A DNA stretch of 64,000 bases. It comes from Myroides phaeus. Lineage in GTDB: Bacteria; Bacteroidota; Bacteroidia; Flavobacteriales; Flavobacteriaceae. Positions 27,980-33,088 of the stretch are shown here, in pieces; within the stretch, counting starts at the first letter, position 1, and each line of letters opens with the position of its first letter. The notes under the pieces are model-generated. The model had not been told where the DNA came from. It saw only the letters and a program-made list of their open reading frames with translations, and made no database searches. The stretch is from assembly GCF_009799805.1 (NCBI RefSeq), contig NZ_CP047050.1, positions 1,192,001 to 1,256,000 of the forward strand. The letters run 5' to 3'. The translations under genes were made by a program, and so were the position numbers.

Positions 27980-28297
27980 TTAGTAATTATTCTTGTATTG
28001 CTCTATGTTAGCAAGTAAAGTTTGTTTATCCATATATCCGGATTGGCGCCATAATAACTTACCTTTTCTAAACAACATCAAAGTAGGTACACCTCTCATT
28101 TGATACTGTGTACTATATTGTGTTGTTAATGCTTGGTTTTTATCAACGTCAATCTTAATGATTGTAATATTGTCTTGTAGTGTTTGTTTTACTTCTTCCA
28201 AGACAGGTGCAAGCATCTGACAAGGACCACACCAAGTGGCAAAGAAGTCCACTAAGACTAACTGATCACTATTGATTAGTTCTTCAAATTTATTCAT
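27980..28297 (-). CDS. Thioredoxin
   Basis: 105 residues, a single thioredoxin domain with the active site W-C-G-P-C (Cys23 and Cys26) and cis-proline segment R-G-V-P-T. No signal peptide, so cytoplasmic. It begins 7 nt after the MBL-rhodanese gene, which makes it part of that operon. A reductant for persulfide or thiosulfate chemistry by the MBL-rhodanese protein is the natural inference. Whether it is also the general thioredoxin of the cell cannot be decided from the window. Confidence 0.93.
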   Translation of the reverse strand: MNKFEELINSDQLVLVDFFATWCGPCQMLAPVLEEVKQTLQDNITIIKIDVDKNQALTTQYSTQYQMRGVPTLMLFRKGKLLWRQSGYMDKQTLLANIEQYKNNY

Positions 28298-28304
28298 TTC
28301 TGTA

Positions 28305-29732
28305 TTATTTTCCTGTTGTTGGACAAGTAGCAGTACAAGTGCTTTCTTTTAAAGCAATACCTGTATTTTTAATTGCTCCGAAACCTCCGATTACATCAAT
28401 CATATTGTGGAATCCTCTTGCTTTCAAGATAGATGAAGCAATAAGTGATCTATATCCTCCAGCACAGTGGATAAAGAAAGTTTCATCTGTTGGGAATTCA
28501 GCTAAATGATCGTTTAAGTAATCTAATGGTGTGTGGTTAACATTCTTATAGTCGATATGAGCAGAATTATATTCTCCTACTTTACGAACGTCAAAGATGT
28601 TGATATCTTCATTTTTAACTTTATTAGCTAACTCATCAGCAGTAACTTGTTGAACAGTGTCATATTCCATTCCTTCGTTCTTCCAGTTTGCAAAACCACC
28701 TTCTAAGTAACCTAATGTATTGTCATAACCAACACGAGAAAGTCTAATAATAGCCTCTTCTTCTCTTCCTTCTGGACAAACGATTAAGATAGGTTGTTTA
28801 ATATCTGTAATTAAAGCACCAACCCAAGGAGCAAACTGCCCATCTAATCCAATAAAGATAGATCCAGGAATATGTCCCGCTGCAAACTCTGCACCAGGTC
28901 TAACATCTAAAATTAATGCTCCAGAATCATCAGCTAAAGCTTGGAAATCTTTAGGTGATAATTTTTTATTATTAGTGATAATCGTTTCAACGTTCTCGTA
29001 TCCTTCTTTGTTCAACTTCACATTTAAAGGGAAGTAAGCAGGAGGAGGTAAAAGACCATCAGTAACTTCTTTTACGAATTCAGCTTCTGTCATATCCGCA
29101 CGTAACGCATAGTTTGTTTGCTTTTGTTCACCAAGAGTACCTACAGTTTCTTTACTTAAGTTTTTACCACAAGCAGAACCAGCTCCGTGTGCAGGGTAAA
29201 CAATTACGTCATCTGCTAACGGCATAATTTTCGTACGTAAGCTATTGTATAAAGTAGCTGCTAATTGCTCTTGTGTTAAATTAGCTGCTTTTTGTGCTAA
29301 ATCAGGACGACCTACATCTCCTAAGAAAAGGGTATCTCCACTAAAAATAGCGTGGTCTTTACCATTTTCATCTTTTAATAAGTAAGTTGTACTCTCCATA
29401 GTATGACCAGGAGTATGTAAAGTTGTAATAGTAACTTTTCCAAGTTGAAAAACTTCTCCATCTTTAGCAATGTGTGCTTTAAATGAAGGGTTAGCATTTG
29501 GTCCATAAACGATTGGAGCGCCAGTTTTTTCAGCTAAAGTAACGTGTCCACTTACGAAGTCAGCGTGAAAGTGAGTTTCAAAAATATACTTGATCGTAGC
29601 ATTATCTTTTGTTGCTTTGTCCAAATAAGGTTGAACTTCTCTCAGAGGGTCAATAATTGCCACTTCTCCTTCGCTTTCAATGTAGTATGCTCCTTGAGCA
29701 AGACAGCCGGTATAAATTTGTTCTATTTTCAT
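28305..29732 (-). CDS. MBL-fold hydrolase with two rhodanese domains (persulfide dioxygenase-like)
   Basis: 475 residues. An N-terminal metallo-beta-lactamase domain carries the metal motif H54-F-H56-A-D58 and later H-T-P-G-H-T and F-S-G-D-T-L, as in ETHE1-type persulfide dioxygenases. Two rhodanese domains follow: the first with I-L-D-V-R and V-C-P-E-G-R, the second with I-F-D-V-R and I-H-C-A-G-G-Y-R-S, so both keep an active-site cysteine. The tail has C-T-A-T-C. The protein should oxidise glutathione- or protein-bound persulfide and move sulfane sulfur. It heads an operon with thioredoxin and is preceded by a palindromic operator and promoter. Confidence 0.9.
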   Translation of the reverse strand: MKIEQIYTGCLAQGAYYIESEGEVAIIDPLREVQPYLDKATKDNATIKYIFETHFHADFVSGHVTLAEKTGAPIVYGPNANPSFKAHIAKDGEVFQLGKVTITTLHTPGHTMESTTYLLKDENGKDHAIFSGDTLFLGDVGRPDLAQKAANLTQEQLAATLYNSLRTKIMPLADDVIVYPAHGAGSACGKNLSKETVGTLGEQKQTNYALRADMTEAEFVKEVTDGLLPPPAYFPLNVKLNKEGYENVETIITNNKKLSPKDFQALADDSGALILDVRPGAEFAAGHIPGSIFIGLDGQFAPWVGALITDIKQPILIVCPEGREEEAIIRLSRVGYDNTLGYLEGGFANWKNEGMEYDTVQQVTADELANKVKNEDINIFDVRKVGEYNSAHIDYKNVNHTPLDYLNDHLAEFPTDETFFIHCAGGYRSLIASSILKARGFHNMIDVIGGFGAIKNTGIALKESTCTATCPTTGK

Positions 29733-29763: not shown

Positions 29764-29807
29764 TAAAATTAGGAAGATGTTTTGAATTGTACAGTAACAA
29801 GAGTTAC
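29764..29807 (-). promoter_or_regulatory. Crp/Fnr-type operator and promoter of the MBL-rhodanese operon
   Basis: The palindrome GTAAC-AAGA-GTTAC (29794-29807) is centred 36.5 bp upstream of the end of a minus-strand -7 box, TAATTTTA (29771-29764, one mismatch). With a start site about 4 nt beyond, the operator is at -41.5, the class II activator position. The leader would be about 28 nt. Confidence 0.6.
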
Positions 29808-29810
29808 AAA

Positions 29811-30602
29811 CTAAAGAAACACTTCTTTTATTAAAATATAGATGGCCATAATTAAAACAAAATAACCAAAGCCTTTTTTTAAGTTGTTATCTGGGACAAA
29901 TTTAGTTAAGTATATCCCTATAAATATTCCGATGATTGAAATTGCACTAAAAGTTAGTAATAATGCCCAATCCATCGTTGTGTGTCCTATATCTCCTAAG
30001 AAACCGATTAGCGATTGTATAGCAACGATACATAGTGATGTACCTACTGCTTTTCGCATTGGTAAGTTTGAGAATAATACCAAAGCTGGAATAATAAGGA
30101 AACCACCTCCTGCACCAACTGTACCGGCTAATAATCCAATTAATAATCCTTGTATTACCAGTCCTCCTAAGTTAGGATTGCTTTCTTCAATTATTTGATC
30201 TTTGCGAGGTCGAATCATCTTGATCGCCGATGTAAGCATTACAATTGCAAACAGCACCATAAGTGCAATGTTTTTATCTAATTGTAAACTTCCAATAGAA
30301 ATAATATCAGGAACTAAGGGGAGTAAAAATGCTCTTGTAATATAAACTGATATTAAAGAAGGAATACCGAATAAGACAACAGCTTTTGTGTCAACTTTTT
30401 TATCAATTAGGTTTTTGAAACCACCTACTAATGAGGTTGAACCTACAATAAATAGGGAATAAGCAGTTGCAACAAATGGTTCTATCTTCATTATATAAAC
30501 TAAAATAGGAACAGTAAGTATTGATCCTCCACTTCCTATAAGTCCTAATGAAATACCAATTAGTAAGGCTAAAGAATAACCTATTAACGATGTGTAATCC
30601 AT
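29811..30602 (-). CDS. TauE/SafE-family sulfite or organosulfur exporter (TSUP)
   Basis: 263 residues with about eight membrane helices. Both halves carry the TSUP repeat: G-S-G-G-S-I-L-T-V-P near residue 23 and G-A-G-G-G-F-L-I-I-P near 165. These inner-membrane proteins move sulfite, sulfoacetate or similar anions. It starts 6 nt after the Crp/Fnr gene and is followed by the MBL-rhodanese operon, so export or uptake of a sulfur anion linked to persulfide oxidation is likely. Confidence 0.88.
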   Translation of the reverse strand: MDYTSLIGYSLALLIGISLGLIGSGGSILTVPILVYIMKIEPFVATAYSLFIVGSTSLVGGFKNLIDKKVDTKAVVLFGIPSLISVYITRAFLLPLVPDIISIGSLQLDKNIALMVLFAIVMLTSAIKMIRPRKDQIIEESNPNLGGLVIQGLLIGLLAGTVGAGGGFLIIPALVLFSNLPMRKAVGTSLCIVAIQSLIGFLGDIGHTTMDWALLLTFSAISIIGIFIGIYLTKFVPDNNLKKGFGYFVLIMAIYILIKEVFL

Positions 30603-30608
30603 AGTGTT

Positions 30609-31244
30609 TTACTGAGATTTAAGTAACTCAATATATTTTCGATTGAGTTGTATAATTCCTTTATTCTCAAGAGTTTTTAAGATACGAGAAATAACTACTC
30701 TCGATGTGTTAAGCTCTTCAGCCAACTCTTGATGTGTGTTGTTTATAAATCTACTATTGTAAACCTTAGCTTTATCTTGAAGTAATTTGCACAAGCGTTC
30801 TTCCATATTCATAAACGCTAAACTATCTACTGCAGAAAGTAATTCATTCATTCTGTTGTTATAGCTATTAAGTACGAAGTTTCTCCAACTTTTGTATTTC
30901 ACTAACCATTCGTCCATTTTTCCAACAGGAACTAATATAACACTACCATCGCGTTCTGCAATAGAACGCACTTGACTTTTCGTTTCACCCAAACAACAAG
31001 TTAATGTCATTGCACAGGTGTCTCCTTGCTCAATGTAGTATAAGACAATCTCTCCCTCTTTTTGATCTTCTCTAATTATCTTGATAGCACCTGCTAATAG
31101 AAGAGGTATTTTTTTTATGTACTCTCCAATTTCCATCAGTCTTTCACCTTCTTTAAAATCTTTGATAGTTGAAACTTTGATAATTTCTTCTAACAATTCT
31201 TCTTCAAAGATGTAGCGGTATTTCGTTTTGATAATATGTTCCAT
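30609..31244 (-). CDS. Crp/Fnr-family transcriptional regulator of the sulfur genes
   Basis: 211 residues. The N-terminal cyclic-nucleotide-binding-like domain (about 20-125) lacks the phosphate-binding R-S of CRP and instead has a cysteine cluster C77-A-M-T-L-T-C83-C84. The C-terminal winged helix-turn-helix has H-Q-E-L-A-E-E-L-N-T-S-R-V-V-I-S-R as its recognition region. Such proteins often respond to redox or sulfur species. It lies amid sulfur genes, two of whose operons carry the same palindrome at the same promoter distance. It is in an operon with the TauE/SafE gene. Confidence 0.88.
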   Translation of the reverse strand: MEHIIKTKYRYIFEEELLEEIIKVSTIKDFKEGERLMEIGEYIKKIPLLLAGAIKIIREDQKEGEIVLYYIEQGDTCAMTLTCCLGETKSQVRSIAERDGSVILVPVGKMDEWLVKYKSWRNFVLNSYNNRMNELLSAVDSLAFMNMEERLCKLLQDKAKVYNSRFINNTHQELAEELNTSRVVISRILKTLENKGIIQLNRKYIELLKSQ

Positions 31245-31564
31245 AAAGATTGAATAAGATGGTTTTGGGTTTTAAAATTACTTTATTTAAAGCAACTTAT
31301 CAATTTTATTGCAATCTTAAAAGAGACAATATAAAATATTAGTCGTTGTAATTTTTTATTAATGAATGAAATAGAATAAAAAAAGCTAAAGAATATTGTT
31401 GTGTAATTAGACTATATCGACAGTGTTCTGGTACTTTTAACCAAAGAAATGCTTGTTTTCAAGAAGGAAGTACCAGAAATATGTCTATAAATTGTCACTT
31501 ACTGCAAGTGAATATTTATGTAATGTTTTGTGTATGCAGTATTTCAAAAGCTAAGTATTGTTGA
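31245..31564. other. 320-bp intergenic region upstream of the Crp/Fnr gene
   Basis: Lies between the second YeeE-like gene and the regulator gene, both on the minus strand. Besides the regulator promoter (no clear consensus found), it holds a large nested inverted repeat at 31419-31485 and a smaller palindrome, TCACTT-ACTGC-AAGTGA, at 31495-31511. No ORF is supported. Confidence 0.4.
31419..31485. repeat. Long nested inverted repeat
   Basis: GACA-gtg-TTCTGGTACTT (31419-31436) pairs with AAGTACCAGAA-ata-TGTC (31468-31485): 11 bp perfect, a 3-nt symmetric internal loop, then 4 bp more. Inside the loop, CTTG-TTTT-CAAG (31452-31463) makes a second small hairpin. No T-run follows on either strand, so it is not an ordinary terminator. 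Confidence 0.7.
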
Positions 31565-31978
31565 TTAATGAGGTAAGTATTTTCTCACTAATCCATAAAC
31601 CCAAGTACCAAGAAGTGCACCAACAATAGCGAAGATAATTGAGTAGAATCCTGCACCAAAGTTAGCAAACATAGGTCCTGGACAAGCTCCTCCAAGTGCC
31701 CATCCTAATCCAAAGATTATTCCACCAAATAAGTACCTTGGAATACTCATATCTTTTGGAGTAAATATGATTGGGTTACCAGAGAAGTCTTTAATGTTTT
31801 TCTTTTTGATAATTTGTGTTGCTATAACTGCTATAGTTAATGCTGTTCCCATAATACCATACATATGGAAACTGTCAAATTGGAACATCTCATAAATTCT
31901 AAACCAAGAAGCGGCTCCTGATTTAAACATTCCAATTCCGAATATCATTCCTACGAATAAATAAGCTAATTTTTTCAT
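31565..31978 (-). CDS. YeeE/YedE-like membrane protein, C-terminal half
   Basis: 137 residues and about four membrane helices, with the G-G-A-C-P-G-P motif near residue 100 that corresponds to the second half of thiosulfate transporters of the YeeE (TsuA) type. It starts 12 nt after a gene for the first half, so together they probably make one split transporter for thiosulfate or a related sulfur compound. The single motif cysteine is retained. Confidence 0.85.
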   Translation of the reverse strand: MKKLAYLFVGMIFGIGMFKSGAASWFRIYEMFQFDSFHMYGIMGTALTIAVIATQIIKKKNIKDFSGNPIIFTPKDMSIPRYLFGGIIFGLGWALGGACPGPMFANFGAGFYSIIFAIVGALLGTWVYGLVRKYLPH

Positions 31979-31990
31979 TTCGAATATAAT

Positions 31991-32551
31991 TTAAAAGATG
32001 AATGGAAATAATAAATGAACCATAATAAGACCTCCAATGAAGAAACCAATTACAGCAATTAATGAAGGTAATTGTAGATTACTCAATCCACTAATAGCGT
32101 GTCCTGATGTACAACCACCAGCATAACGAGAACCAAAACCTACAAAGAAACCAGCTAAGATTAAAATTCCAATATTCTTTAAAGAAGAGAAAGTTTCGTT
32201 GCTGTAAAGTTCTGTTGGTACATAAGCTTTACCAGCACTCTCAATTCCTAATTCGTTTAATTTTTGAATGGTGTTTTCTCCTAAAGGAATAGCAGCTGCG
32301 TCAACACTTAAAAAGTGATATGCAATAAAACCTCCTGCAATTGTACCTACTAAGAAAAGTAAGTTCCACGTTTGTGCTTTCCAATTAAAGCAGAAGAAAT
32401 CACACGATTTACCAGCTCCCATCATCGAACACATAGTTCGCAAGTTTGATGAAAAACCAAAAGATTTACCAAGAAGTAATAATAATATTAAGGTGATTGC
32501 GATAAATAATCCACCAAGATACCACGGCCAAGGCTCAAATATCCAACTCAT
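31991..32551 (-). CDS. YeeE/YedE-like membrane protein, N-terminal half
   Basis: 186 residues, with about five membrane helices. The motif [12 protein letters not shown] near residue 145 is the cysteine motif of the first half of TsuA/YeeE transporters. The extra segment K-S-C-D-F-F-C-F near residue 50 adds two cysteines. It is the first gene of a two-gene operon and has a promoter with an operator at -41.5 (32583-32626). Likely imports thiosulfate or a polysulfide into the cytoplasm. Confidence 0.85.
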
Positions 32552-32582
32552 TTTCTTATTGTTTAAAGAATTAATAATAGTA

Positions 32583-32626
32583 CAAAGGTCTCTATTAAAA
32601 ATGACACAGAATGTAACTTAGGATAC
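32583..32626 (-). promoter_or_regulatory. Crp/Fnr-type operator and promoter of the YeeE operon
   Basis: GTAAC-TTAG-GATAC (32613-32626) repeats the GTAAC-N4-GTTAC palindrome with one mismatch. Its centre is 36.5 bp from the end of a minus-strand -7 box GACCTTTG (32590-32583), the same spacing as at the MBL-rhodanese operon. The predicted leader is again about 28 nt. Confidence 0.58.
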
Positions 32627-32728: not shown

Positions 32729-33088
32729 ATGAAAGAAGCTAATCACAAAGTAGTTTTTCAATTAAACACAGATAATATAATTGAGCAAAATGCTTTGATT
32801 ACGTATATCACAAATGTGAAAAATCACTGGGCAGATGATGTAGTAATTCACGTTGTTGTACACGGACCTGGAATTGGTATGGTGCGAAAAAGTAAAACGA
32901 TGGTTGGAGAAGGATTGAGAATAGTTATGCAGAAGGGGATAAAGTTCTATGCGTGTCAAAATACGATGAATGCAAGAATGATATCGGAAGATGATATTAT
33001 TGAAGGAGTAGCTTTTGTACCATCAGGATTAGTTGATATAATTGAAAAGCAAGAACAAGGATGGGCTTATATTAAGTGTAACCTTTAG
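32729..33088 (+). CDS. DsrE-family protein
   Basis: 119 residues, a single DsrE/DsrF-like domain with a cysteine in F-Y-A-C-Q-N-T-M near residue 76, the place where family members carry persulfide sulfur. No signal peptide. It is divergent from the YeeE operon with 177 bp between, which contains the palindromic operator. Sulfur relay from the importer to the MBL-rhodanese protein is the plausible role (inference). Confidence 0.85.
   Translation: MKEANHKVVFQLNTDNIIEQNALITYITNVKNHWADDVVIHVVVHGPGIGMVRKSKTMVGEGLRIVMQKGIKFYACQNTMNARMISEDDIIEGVAFVPSGLVDIIEKQEQGWAYIKCNL

Follow-up and report, generated by a model that had tools for sequence, protein, structure and literature searches.

The persulfide sensors described in PMC7315123 and PMC9774590 are members of the CsoR, ArsR and sigma-54 families from other bacteria. 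FisR is a sigma-54 activator, BigR/SqrR belongs to the ArsR and CstR to the CsoR family, whereas the regulator considered here is of the Crp/Fnr type; according to the same papers, the predicted system resembles them in the kind of target gene, namely PDO, SQR, TauE and YeeE/YedE. The main text of the review PMC9774590 makes no mention of "Fnr", "Bacteroid" or "Flavobact", and we found no description of such a system in searches of open-access literature, some of them limited by word form.

The cyanobacterial nitrogen regulator NtcA binds GTAN8TAC sites near -41.5 and works with a TAN3T -10 box in a class II arrangement, as described in PMC3898017. In this study, a window of 64 kb (the whole stretch of Myroides phaeus DNA that was analysed) was found to hold GTAAC-N4-GTTAC operators that fit GTAN8TAC and lie in a class II layout, and the recognition helix SRVVISR of a neighbouring regulator aligns with TRVTVTR of NtcA. 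However, this regulator is only about 20% identical to NtcA (Foldseek TM-score 0.53), its predicted targets are mainly of sulfur/thiol type rather than genes of nitrogen assimilation, it carries three cysteines in its cassette, and the -7 box is of the Bacteroidota kind.

Escherichia coli Crp has the same domain order and fold as the window regulator, and its half-site is TGTGA with an N6 spacer; a contact rule for Crp E181, older specificity mutants of the E181V type included, is part of this background. Glu at the position equivalent to E181 goes with GTGAC halves in relatives of the Glu-183 type, as in Crp, whereas the M. phaeus protein has Val there, GTAAC sites, an N4 spacer and the cassette CAMTLTCCLG, and scores far under the cut-off of the curated Crp model. 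Fnr proper has four cluster cysteines, most of them in an N-terminal motif, while the well conserved cysteines of the window protein are only C77, C83 and C84. The best sequence match in the PDB (4.9e-11) is 3dv8, a Crp/Fnr structure from Eubacterium rectale, whose cysteines align with C77 and C83 but which has Ile at the position of C84. HcpR of Porphyromonas gingivalis, which serves the nitrosative stress response through haem and controls hcp, shares both phylum and Crp/Fnr superfamily with the window regulator (Foldseek 9day, TM-score 0.71); the window system has other predicted target genes.

The locus and its two operators

The features of the M. phaeus locus are as follows.

27980..28297, minus strand: thioredoxin gene, 7 nt after the MBL-rhodanese gene (TIGR01068, 108.2 bits, above cut-off)
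28305..29732, minus strand: MBL-fold protein with two rhodanese stretches, persulfide dioxygenase/sulfurtransferase type (PF00753; PF00581 in 2 stretches)
29764..29771, minus strand: -7 box TAATTTTA of the MBL-rhodanese promoter, 22 bp downstream of the operator (read from the sequence)
29794..29807, minus strand: operator of the MBL-rhodanese/thioredoxin promoter, GTAACAAGAGTTAC, an exact match to GTAAC-N4-GTTAC
29811..30602, minus strand: exporter of TauE/SafE type, 6 nt downstream of the regulator gene (PF01925, 2.4e-43)
30609..31244, minus strand: Crp/Fnr regulator, 211 aa (PF13545, 1.9e-11; PF00027, 24.8 bits, cut-off 27.5)
30684..30704, minus strand: recognition-helix codons 181-187, SRVVISR; the type of operator half-site varies with residue 183
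30993..31016, minus strand: codons 77-84 with conserved C77, C83 and C84, cNMP phosphate cassette region
31565..31978, minus strand: YeeE/YedE-type sulfur transporter, second half (PF20398, PF04143)
31991..32551, minus strand: YeeE/YedE-type sulfur transporter, first half (PF04143, 9e-15)
32583..32590, minus strand: -7 box GACCTTTG of the YeeE/YedE promoter, 22 bp downstream of the operator (read from the sequence)
32613..32626, minus strand: operator of the YeeE/YedE promoter, GTAACTTAGGATAC, GTATC-N4-GTTAC, one mismatch
32729..33088, plus strand: divergent DsrE-family gene (PF02635, 3.6e-12)

The positions that the sequence-only reading had given for both palindromes and both -7 boxes proved right on direct reading, and the equal distance it had reported was recovered on recalculation: the palindromes, centred at 29800.5 and 32619.5, each lie 36.5 bp from the 3' end of their own box. 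Each of TAATTTTA and GACCTTTG has one mismatch to TAnnTTTG, which we take to be the Bacteroidota promoter (-7) consensus. Judged by spacing, this fixed place of the palindrome near -41.5 relative to the -7 box is the class II layout.

The same arrangement, defined as a composite of palindrome, 22 bp and TAnnTTTG, was sought at the other promoters of the locus. On the plus strand no fitting -7 box stands at 21-23 bp for the divergent DsrE gene, and with 5 mismatches in the best composite its control from the shared YeeE site is unsupported. The promoter of the regulator and TauE genes has no operator in the window (best composite 7 mismatches), which leaves autoregulation there unsupported, and the TauE/SafE gene has none of its own in the window (best upstream composite 6 mismatches).

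Both operators are conserved in relatives, palindrome and spacing alike. Among 12 Myroides-clade loci, M. phaeus itself included, the YeeE palindrome is kept in all 12, its GTATC half included, and is followed at 22 bp by GAnnTTTG (11/12) or CAnnTTTG (1/12); the MBL-rhodanese palindrome is kept in 11/12, with TAnnTTTA at 22 bp in each of these 11. In 80 related loci, a TAnnTTTG-like box lies 21-23 bp downstream in 105 of 112 distinct sites, the offset being N22 in 95 and N21 in 10, with 4 or fewer at any other offset. Outside Myroides, 54 of 68 loci have a palindrome with at most one mismatch in the 220 bp ahead of a cluster gene, and 14 have none near the genes tested. In some relatives (L056, L061) a site stands in front of the regulator gene.

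Composite sites across genomes

That the match of two sites is hard to get by chance, as had been argued from the window, does not hold for the palindrome alone: with up to one mismatch it occurs 145 times per strand in the M. phaeus genome, where the reversed control gives 167, and in the 64-kb window 5 times against 1.77 expected, with at least 5 in 5 of 100 shuffles. We therefore rejected the palindrome alone as evidence; it is also without a common theme. The argument does hold for palindrome plus box, since the composite gives 6 genome sites at up to one mismatch against 0 for its reversed version, and the sulfur theme to be looked for in a genome scan appears here in 4/6, placed upstream of genes of sulfur type, in one case with a weak match to DsrE. 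The six include the MBL-rhodanese site, and the two outside the theme precede a haem-type lipoprotein and an uncharacterised small membrane protein. At up to three mismatches there is no enrichment (32+33 against 42+43 in the control), so weaker targets are not callable. The YeeE composite, with 2 mismatches, surfaced only at a looser setting of the genome scan, and its support is therefore conservation rather than that scan.

Several matches were set aside. Of 8 exact palindromes among the matches listed, L001, L004 and L007 lie inside ORFs, and L006 falls in a gap some 160 bp ahead of the closest ORF start and has no composite, so that all four were regarded as chance; further exact palindromes, beyond these 8, occur near 2528080-2528151. 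The two-mismatch composites L116, L118, L120, L121 and L122 are inside ORFs and were likewise dropped; L119 maps to the intergenic stretch at the DsrE-like gene.

In 199 genomes of the family, M. phaeus included, 700 composites were found against 58 in the control. The 156 genomes that encode the regulator (E < 1e-60, a cut-off chosen post hoc that takes in at least one Glu-183 genome, G127) have a mean of 4.39 composites (control 0.32), compared with 0.67 (control 0.33) in 12 genomes with weaker regulator matches only and 0.23 (control 0.13) in 31 genomes without a match. Two or more composites occur in 137/156 regulator genomes versus 3/43 of the rest (Fisher p 7e-24); the composite is absent in 4/156 regulator genomes, and 6/31 genomes without the regulator have 1-2. 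Among 47 sampled zero-mismatch sites of family genomes, 32 stand before sulfur/thiol/haem-type genes or the regulator, 11 before TolC-type genes and 4 before others; sulfide and sulfane sulfur families dominate, and Tll0287-like and HTHP proteins (haem-type) and peroxiredoxin are present. Genomes lacking the regulator are frequently smaller.

Cysteines and recognition helix of the regulator

The Crp/Fnr identity that had been assigned to the 30609-31244 gene was confirmed, as PF13545 (1.9e-11), the AF2 model (mean pLDDT 81) and Foldseek matches to Crp, 3dv8 and NtcA agree on a cNMP-type beta-roll with a Crp-type winged helix. The curated models for NtcA (TIGR03697, 31.9 bits, cut-off 244.95), Fnr (NF008365, 21.2 bits versus 228) and Crp (NF008732, 55.4 bits versus 266) all fall short. 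In near relatives C77 is kept in 81/81, C83 in 79/81 and C84 in 81/81, and a fourth Cys column (152) in 12/81, leaving 77, 83 and 84 as the only positions where Cys is well conserved; across a broader sample of 72 the counts are 72, 67 and 38, with C84 missing in the distant Glu-183 type and C83 in L209, L270-L272 and L275. Model confidence at the cysteines is low (pLDDT 57-64). A trio or pair of cysteines conserved through the family is what a persulfide sensor would call for, and since C77, C83 and C84 sit where cAMP binds in Crp, the regulator is likely a thiol or persulfide sensor.

Residue 183 of the helix goes with the operator half-site in a comparison of 61 genomes of the GTDB genus. 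The 27 Val-183 genomes contain 117 sites of GTAAC type and 7 of GTGAC type, the 28 Glu-183 genomes 55 and 56, mostly hybrids counted twice, and 4 regulator-free genomes 0 and 0, with controls over all 61 at 13 and 6. The richness of Glu-183 genomes in GTAAC/GTGAC hybrids ties the regulator to these operators. A GTGAC half is also present in 15/134 composites of Val-183 loci, and of the 5 Glu-183 loci among near relatives only 2 show a GTGAC site, with identical sequence in both. Because the Val and Glu types largely coincide with lineages, the link between helix and half-site rests on few independent events.

A proposed sulfur regulon and its alternatives

From the operators, their spacing, their co-occurrence with the regulator, the link of helix and half-site and the conserved cysteines, all of which are present in the genomes, we infer binding, activation (as opposed to repression), the effector and the sensing chemistry. 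Very probably a single explanation joins them, in which the Crp/Fnr protein at 30609-31244 would activate a sulfur regulon: its dimer would bind GTAAC-N4-GTTAC, an NtcA-like GTA-N8-TAC site with its centre some 41.5 bp upstream of the transcription start, at the place of a -33 element, and would help RNA polymerase to use the TAnnTTTG -7 box by class II activation. The earlier proposal that it activates MBL-rhodanese/thioredoxin and YeeE thus gains support from conservation, the theme of the composites, co-occurrence and residue 183, the step of activation itself being our reading of them. As targets in M. phaeus we predict YeeE/YedE, MBL-rhodanese-thioredoxin, a flavoprotein of SQR type, a small rhodanese, an exported protein weakly similar to DsrE, together with the 61-aa membrane protein encoded divergently from it, and a lipoprotein resembling Tll0287 along with a flavin reductase. 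The inducer would most likely be sulfide-derived, a persulfide or polysulfide reacting with C77, C83 and C84 at the position of the Crp cAMP site.

One alternative, rather unlikely, keeps protein and operators and assigns them a non-sulfur effector (Fe-S cluster, haem, oxygen, NO or disulfide stress), with sulfur genes induced secondarily. The haem-type proteins and peroxiredoxin among the sampled targets would suit it, as would the cluster-binding cysteines of Fnr-type proteins; however, the latter lie mostly near the N terminus, whereas near relatives have well conserved Cys at 77, 83 and 84 only, within 8 residues, and the sampled targets are mostly sulfide/sulfane sulfur families. It is very improbable that another regulator binds real operators and that the neighbouring gene is incidental: the genome has three more PF13545-matching proteins (two under cut-off) and further Crp/Fnr proteins may have been missed, but all three lack both the SRVVxSR helix and the cysteine block; across genomes the composites go with the 30609-31244-type protein, and the half-site goes with its helix residue 183.

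Repression, or dual use of sites at which the protein competes with RNA polymerase, seems quite improbable, as repressor sites need no fixed position relative to a -7 box and here the box follows at 21-23 bp in 105/112 sites. In its favour, GTAN8TAC boxes at other positions also serve NtcA in the repression of some genes, according to PMC3898017. Chance, to which the palindrome alone would lend itself (background level in the genome, weak enrichment in the window), is hardly credible against conservation, fixed spacing and co-occurrence of regulator and sites.

Returning to activation by the Crp/Fnr protein, a regulon under such an activator appears to extend across flavobacteria, and the operators suggest a way in which the detoxification of sulfide and sulfur is switched on in them. 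If true, this would bring in a further family, with an activator whose operator and promoter geometry are defined and for which some dozen types of target are predicted, and would reveal a flavobacterial control of sulfide and sulfane sulfur with targets predictable in many genomes. We regard a wider reading as evenly poised: the protein might be a flavobacterial, perhaps class-wide, thiol-based persulfide/polysulfide sensor whose cAMP pocket became a sulfur switch on C77 and C83 (with C84), a master activator of sulfide oxidation, of the transport and removal of sulfane sulfur and, in many family relatives, of TolC-type efflux and a SulP permease, with natural Val/Glu swaps at one helix residue re-tuning the regulon operators between GTAAC and GTGAC. 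Such swaps would be a natural record of joint change in a single residue of the recognition helix and in a regulon's operators.

A scan of 118 genomes of the phylum gave 32 composites against 4 in the control for the family (11 genomes), 0 against 0 for the rest of the order (2 genomes) and 20 against 5 for the rest of the class (16 genomes). A Bacteroidota-wide system was not borne out, the 89 genomes outside the class being near background (18 against 14); 17 of these 89 encode a relative of the regulator at E <= 1e-30.

Window promoters and the composite motif

The sequence-only reading had proposed that a Crp/Fnr regulator activates two minus-strand sulfur operons from equally spaced operators, and at both sites the palindromes, the -7 boxes and the 36.5-bp offsets were all as it had described. 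The cluster comprises the following genes.

32551-31565, minus strand: YeeE/YedE-type halves
31244-30609, minus strand: Crp/Fnr regulator
30602-29811, minus strand: TauE/SafE, starting 6 nt after the regulator
29732-28305, minus strand: MBL-fold protein with two rhodanese stretches
28297-27980, minus strand: thioredoxin
from 32729, diverging: DsrE-family gene

Separate operators were looked for at the window TauE/SafE gene and upstream of the regulator gene, and none was found. The genome is a single contig of 3.11 Mb (window, 1192001-1256000); its regulator is identical to that of M. phaeus strain DSM 23313, and the remaining cluster proteins are 97-100% identical.

The argument that such a match is hard to get by chance failed for the palindrome GTAAC-N4-GTTAC alone and held for the composite, in which TAnnTTTG follows the palindrome after 22 bp. 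Allowing one mismatch, the palindrome occurs 5 times in the window (1.77 expected) and 145 times per strand genome-wide versus 167 in the reversed control, and is by itself not unusual. The composite at up to one mismatch has 6 genomic sites versus 0 in its reversed control; the YeeE site deviates from it by two mismatches, and at up to three mismatches no enrichment was seen in this genome. The six sites precede the following genes.

Site 1: MBL-rhodanese, in the window
Site 2: 105-aa rhodanese
Site 3: flavoprotein, best NCBIfam match type III sulfide quinone reductase (SQR)
Site 4: exported protein, matching DsrE families below cut-offs only
Site 5: divergent 61-aa membrane-type protein, no Pfam match
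Site 6: Tll0287-like lipoprotein, then a flavin/NAD reductase

The flavoprotein scored 219.5 bits, under a cut-off of 525 that belongs to the selenoprotein subtype of type III SQR. The genome scan for a sulfur theme therefore gave sulfur-type matches behind four of six sites, one of them weak.

Conservation and co-occurrence with the regulator

One scan of genome contigs with the regulator as query yielded 80 loci, and comparison with relatives bore out the conservation of palindromes and spacing (12 Myroides-clade loci, L030-L041, of which L030 is M. phaeus itself; 112 distinct sites over the 80 loci). All 12 Myroides-clade loci carry GTATC-N4-GTTAC before YeeE, with a box at 22 bp reading GAnnTTTG in 11 and CAnnTTTG in one; exact GTAAC-N4-GTTAC precedes MBL-rhodanese in 11 of the 12, each with TAnnTTTA at 22 bp. 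The remaining locus (L041) has lost the MBL-rhodanese operator and retains the YeeE operator and the regulator. The YeeE imperfections are themselves conserved, namely GTATC instead of GTAAC in the promoter-distal half (32613-32626; 12/12) and G instead of T as first base of the -7 box (32583-32590; 11/12), and the invariant GTATC half looks as if a weaker site were being retained.

Outside Myroides, 54 of 68 loci carry a palindrome with at most one mismatch no more than 220 bp upstream of a cluster gene, and the same search found none in the other 14. Of the 112 sites from all 80 loci, 95 have a TAnnTTTG-like box (at most one mismatch) at a distance of 22 bp from the palindrome and 10 have it at 21 bp, any other offset accounting for at most 4. 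Base frequencies at positions 23-30 after the palindrome are T.75, A.83, n, n, T.94, T.92, T.81, G.68, and a strong -33 element is absent from the frequencies downstream of the palindrome.

The 199 family genomes together contain 700 composites versus 58 matches to the control (sums of copied counts). When genomes were split by a search with a 21-sequence alignment, those with a regulator match below 1e-60, a cut picked after the list was seen, numbered 156 and held 685 sites (4.39 each; control 0.32), including at least one distant Glu-183 type (G127); 12 genomes with weaker matches only held 8 (0.67 each; control 0.33), and 31 without a match held 7 (0.23 each; control 0.13). At least two sites were present in 137/156 versus 3/43 genomes (Fisher p 7e-24). 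Four genomes (G045, G122, G128, G130) have a regulator at E < 1e-60 and no composite at up to one mismatch, where operators may have drifted. In one further genome a stop interrupts the regulator gene (G345:C9:24434-24889, locus L241), and that genome is without a composite site.

The conserved operators, together with composite sites tracking the regulator in the 199 genomes, support the activator reading; we consider the operator-regulator pairing with class II activation highly probable, and its extension from two promoters to a predicted family regulon is supported. A regulator relative at E <= 1e-30 was found in 42 of 118 genomes of the phylum, and composite versus control counts, summed by hand, were 32 vs 4 in the family (11 genomes), 0 vs 0 in the rest of the order (2), 20 vs 5 in the rest of the class (16) and 18 vs 14 in the rest of the phylum (89). 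Outside the class the composite as a whole is near background, and after these counts a phylum-wide range was dropped in favour of family and class. Seventeen genomes outside the class with a relative at E <= 1e-30 hold 11 composites versus 5 controls (hand sums), and in some distant genomes (G223, G239, G260, G301) a site lies directly behind the regulator gene.

Genes behind composite sites in the family

We assigned genes behind 60 listed sites, 47 without mismatch and 13 with one, taking the longest ORF starting within 450 nt. Pfam was queried with one representative from each of five groups (TolC, SulP, DUF983, YgaP, peroxiredoxin), and other members were assigned by BLAST to these or to window or genome proteins. 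Behind 32 of the 47 exact sites lie TauE (10), MBL-rhodanese or rhodanese (8), SulP (4), thioredoxin-like (3), YgaP-like membrane protein (2), the regulator (2, one 387 bp away), SQR, Tll0287-like protein and peroxiredoxin (1 each); the rest precede TolC-type outer membrane proteins (11), a small unknown protein (3) and DUF983 (1). The one-mismatch sites precede MBL-rhodanese (2), YeeE (2), TauE, rhodanese, DUF983 and an HTHP haem protein (1 each) and unknowns (2), and for 3 of the 13 no gene was found at promoter distance.

The TolC-type targets are in L150, L152, L154, L156, L157, L161, L162, L165, L169, L177 and L179; in all three of these loci that were viewed, the next protein resembles, on visual inspection, a membrane-fusion protein. 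The small protein of about 120 aa stands directly behind exact composites in three genomes (L167:2035-2403, L176:2033-2392, L181:103-462); that of L167, the sole one searched, had no Pfam match. DUF983-type proteins follow composites in two genomes (L164:2001-2387, by Pfam; L198:1963-2373, by BLAST to L164).

Recognition helix, known systems and cysteines

Judged from the sequences compared, recognition-helix residue 183 and the operator half-site go together, although lineage effects leave few independent events behind this link. Near relatives carry Val in 76/81 and Glu in 5/81. The GTDB genus (61 genomes) divides into groups as tabulated, its Glu-183 type being at about 40% identity.

Table. 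Composites by regulator type in the GTDB genus
Val-183, 27 genomes: GTAAC-type 117, GTGAC-type 7
Glu-183, 28 genomes: GTAAC-type 55, GTGAC-type 56
Third type, 2 genomes: GTAAC-type 5, GTGAC-type 3
No regulator, 4 genomes: GTAAC-type 0, GTGAC-type 0
Controls, all 61 genomes: GTAAC-type 13, GTGAC-type 6

Hybrids with one GTGAC half make up 43 of 50 listed GTAAC-type sites of the Glu-183 group, a list in which double-GTGAC sites cannot appear. Of the 80 loci, 75 are of the Val-183 type, and 67 of these carry a composite (134 sites; 116 GTAAC/GTTAC, 15 with a GTGAC half); 2 of the 5 Glu-183 loci carry one, both sites being GTGAC/GTTAC and identical in sequence. The equivalent residue of Crp, Glu-181, reads the G:C pair that matches base three of GTAAC/GTGAC; Val at Crp 181 has been reported to change specificity.

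NtcA promoters share the window geometry, with GTAN8TAC near -41.5 plus a -10 box (PMC3898017); however, the window regulator scores 31.9 bits against an NtcA-model cut-off of 244.95. FisR, BigR/SqrR and CstR are known persulfide regulators, of other protein families, for the same kind of genes (PMC7315123, PMC9774590). A full-text search of mainly open-access literature returned no account of this Crp/Fnr sulfur system.

Since the predicted targets are SQR, MBL-rhodanese, rhodanese, YeeE and thioredoxin, the simplest reading is that C77 and C83 form a switch worked by persulfide or polysulfide, and we give about even chances that the cysteines sense sulfur species. Near relatives have C77 in 81/81, C83 in 79/81 and C84 in 81/81; among the 72 sequences of a broader set the counts are 72, 67 and 38, and the Glu-183 type of the GTDB genus retains C77 and C83 only. 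The AF2 model (mean pLDDT 81) fills the cassette region with a short helix at 78-85, within a stretch of low pLDDT (57-64 at residues 61-90), and in 3dv8, the top PDB match by sequence, the positions of C77 and C83 are both Cys.
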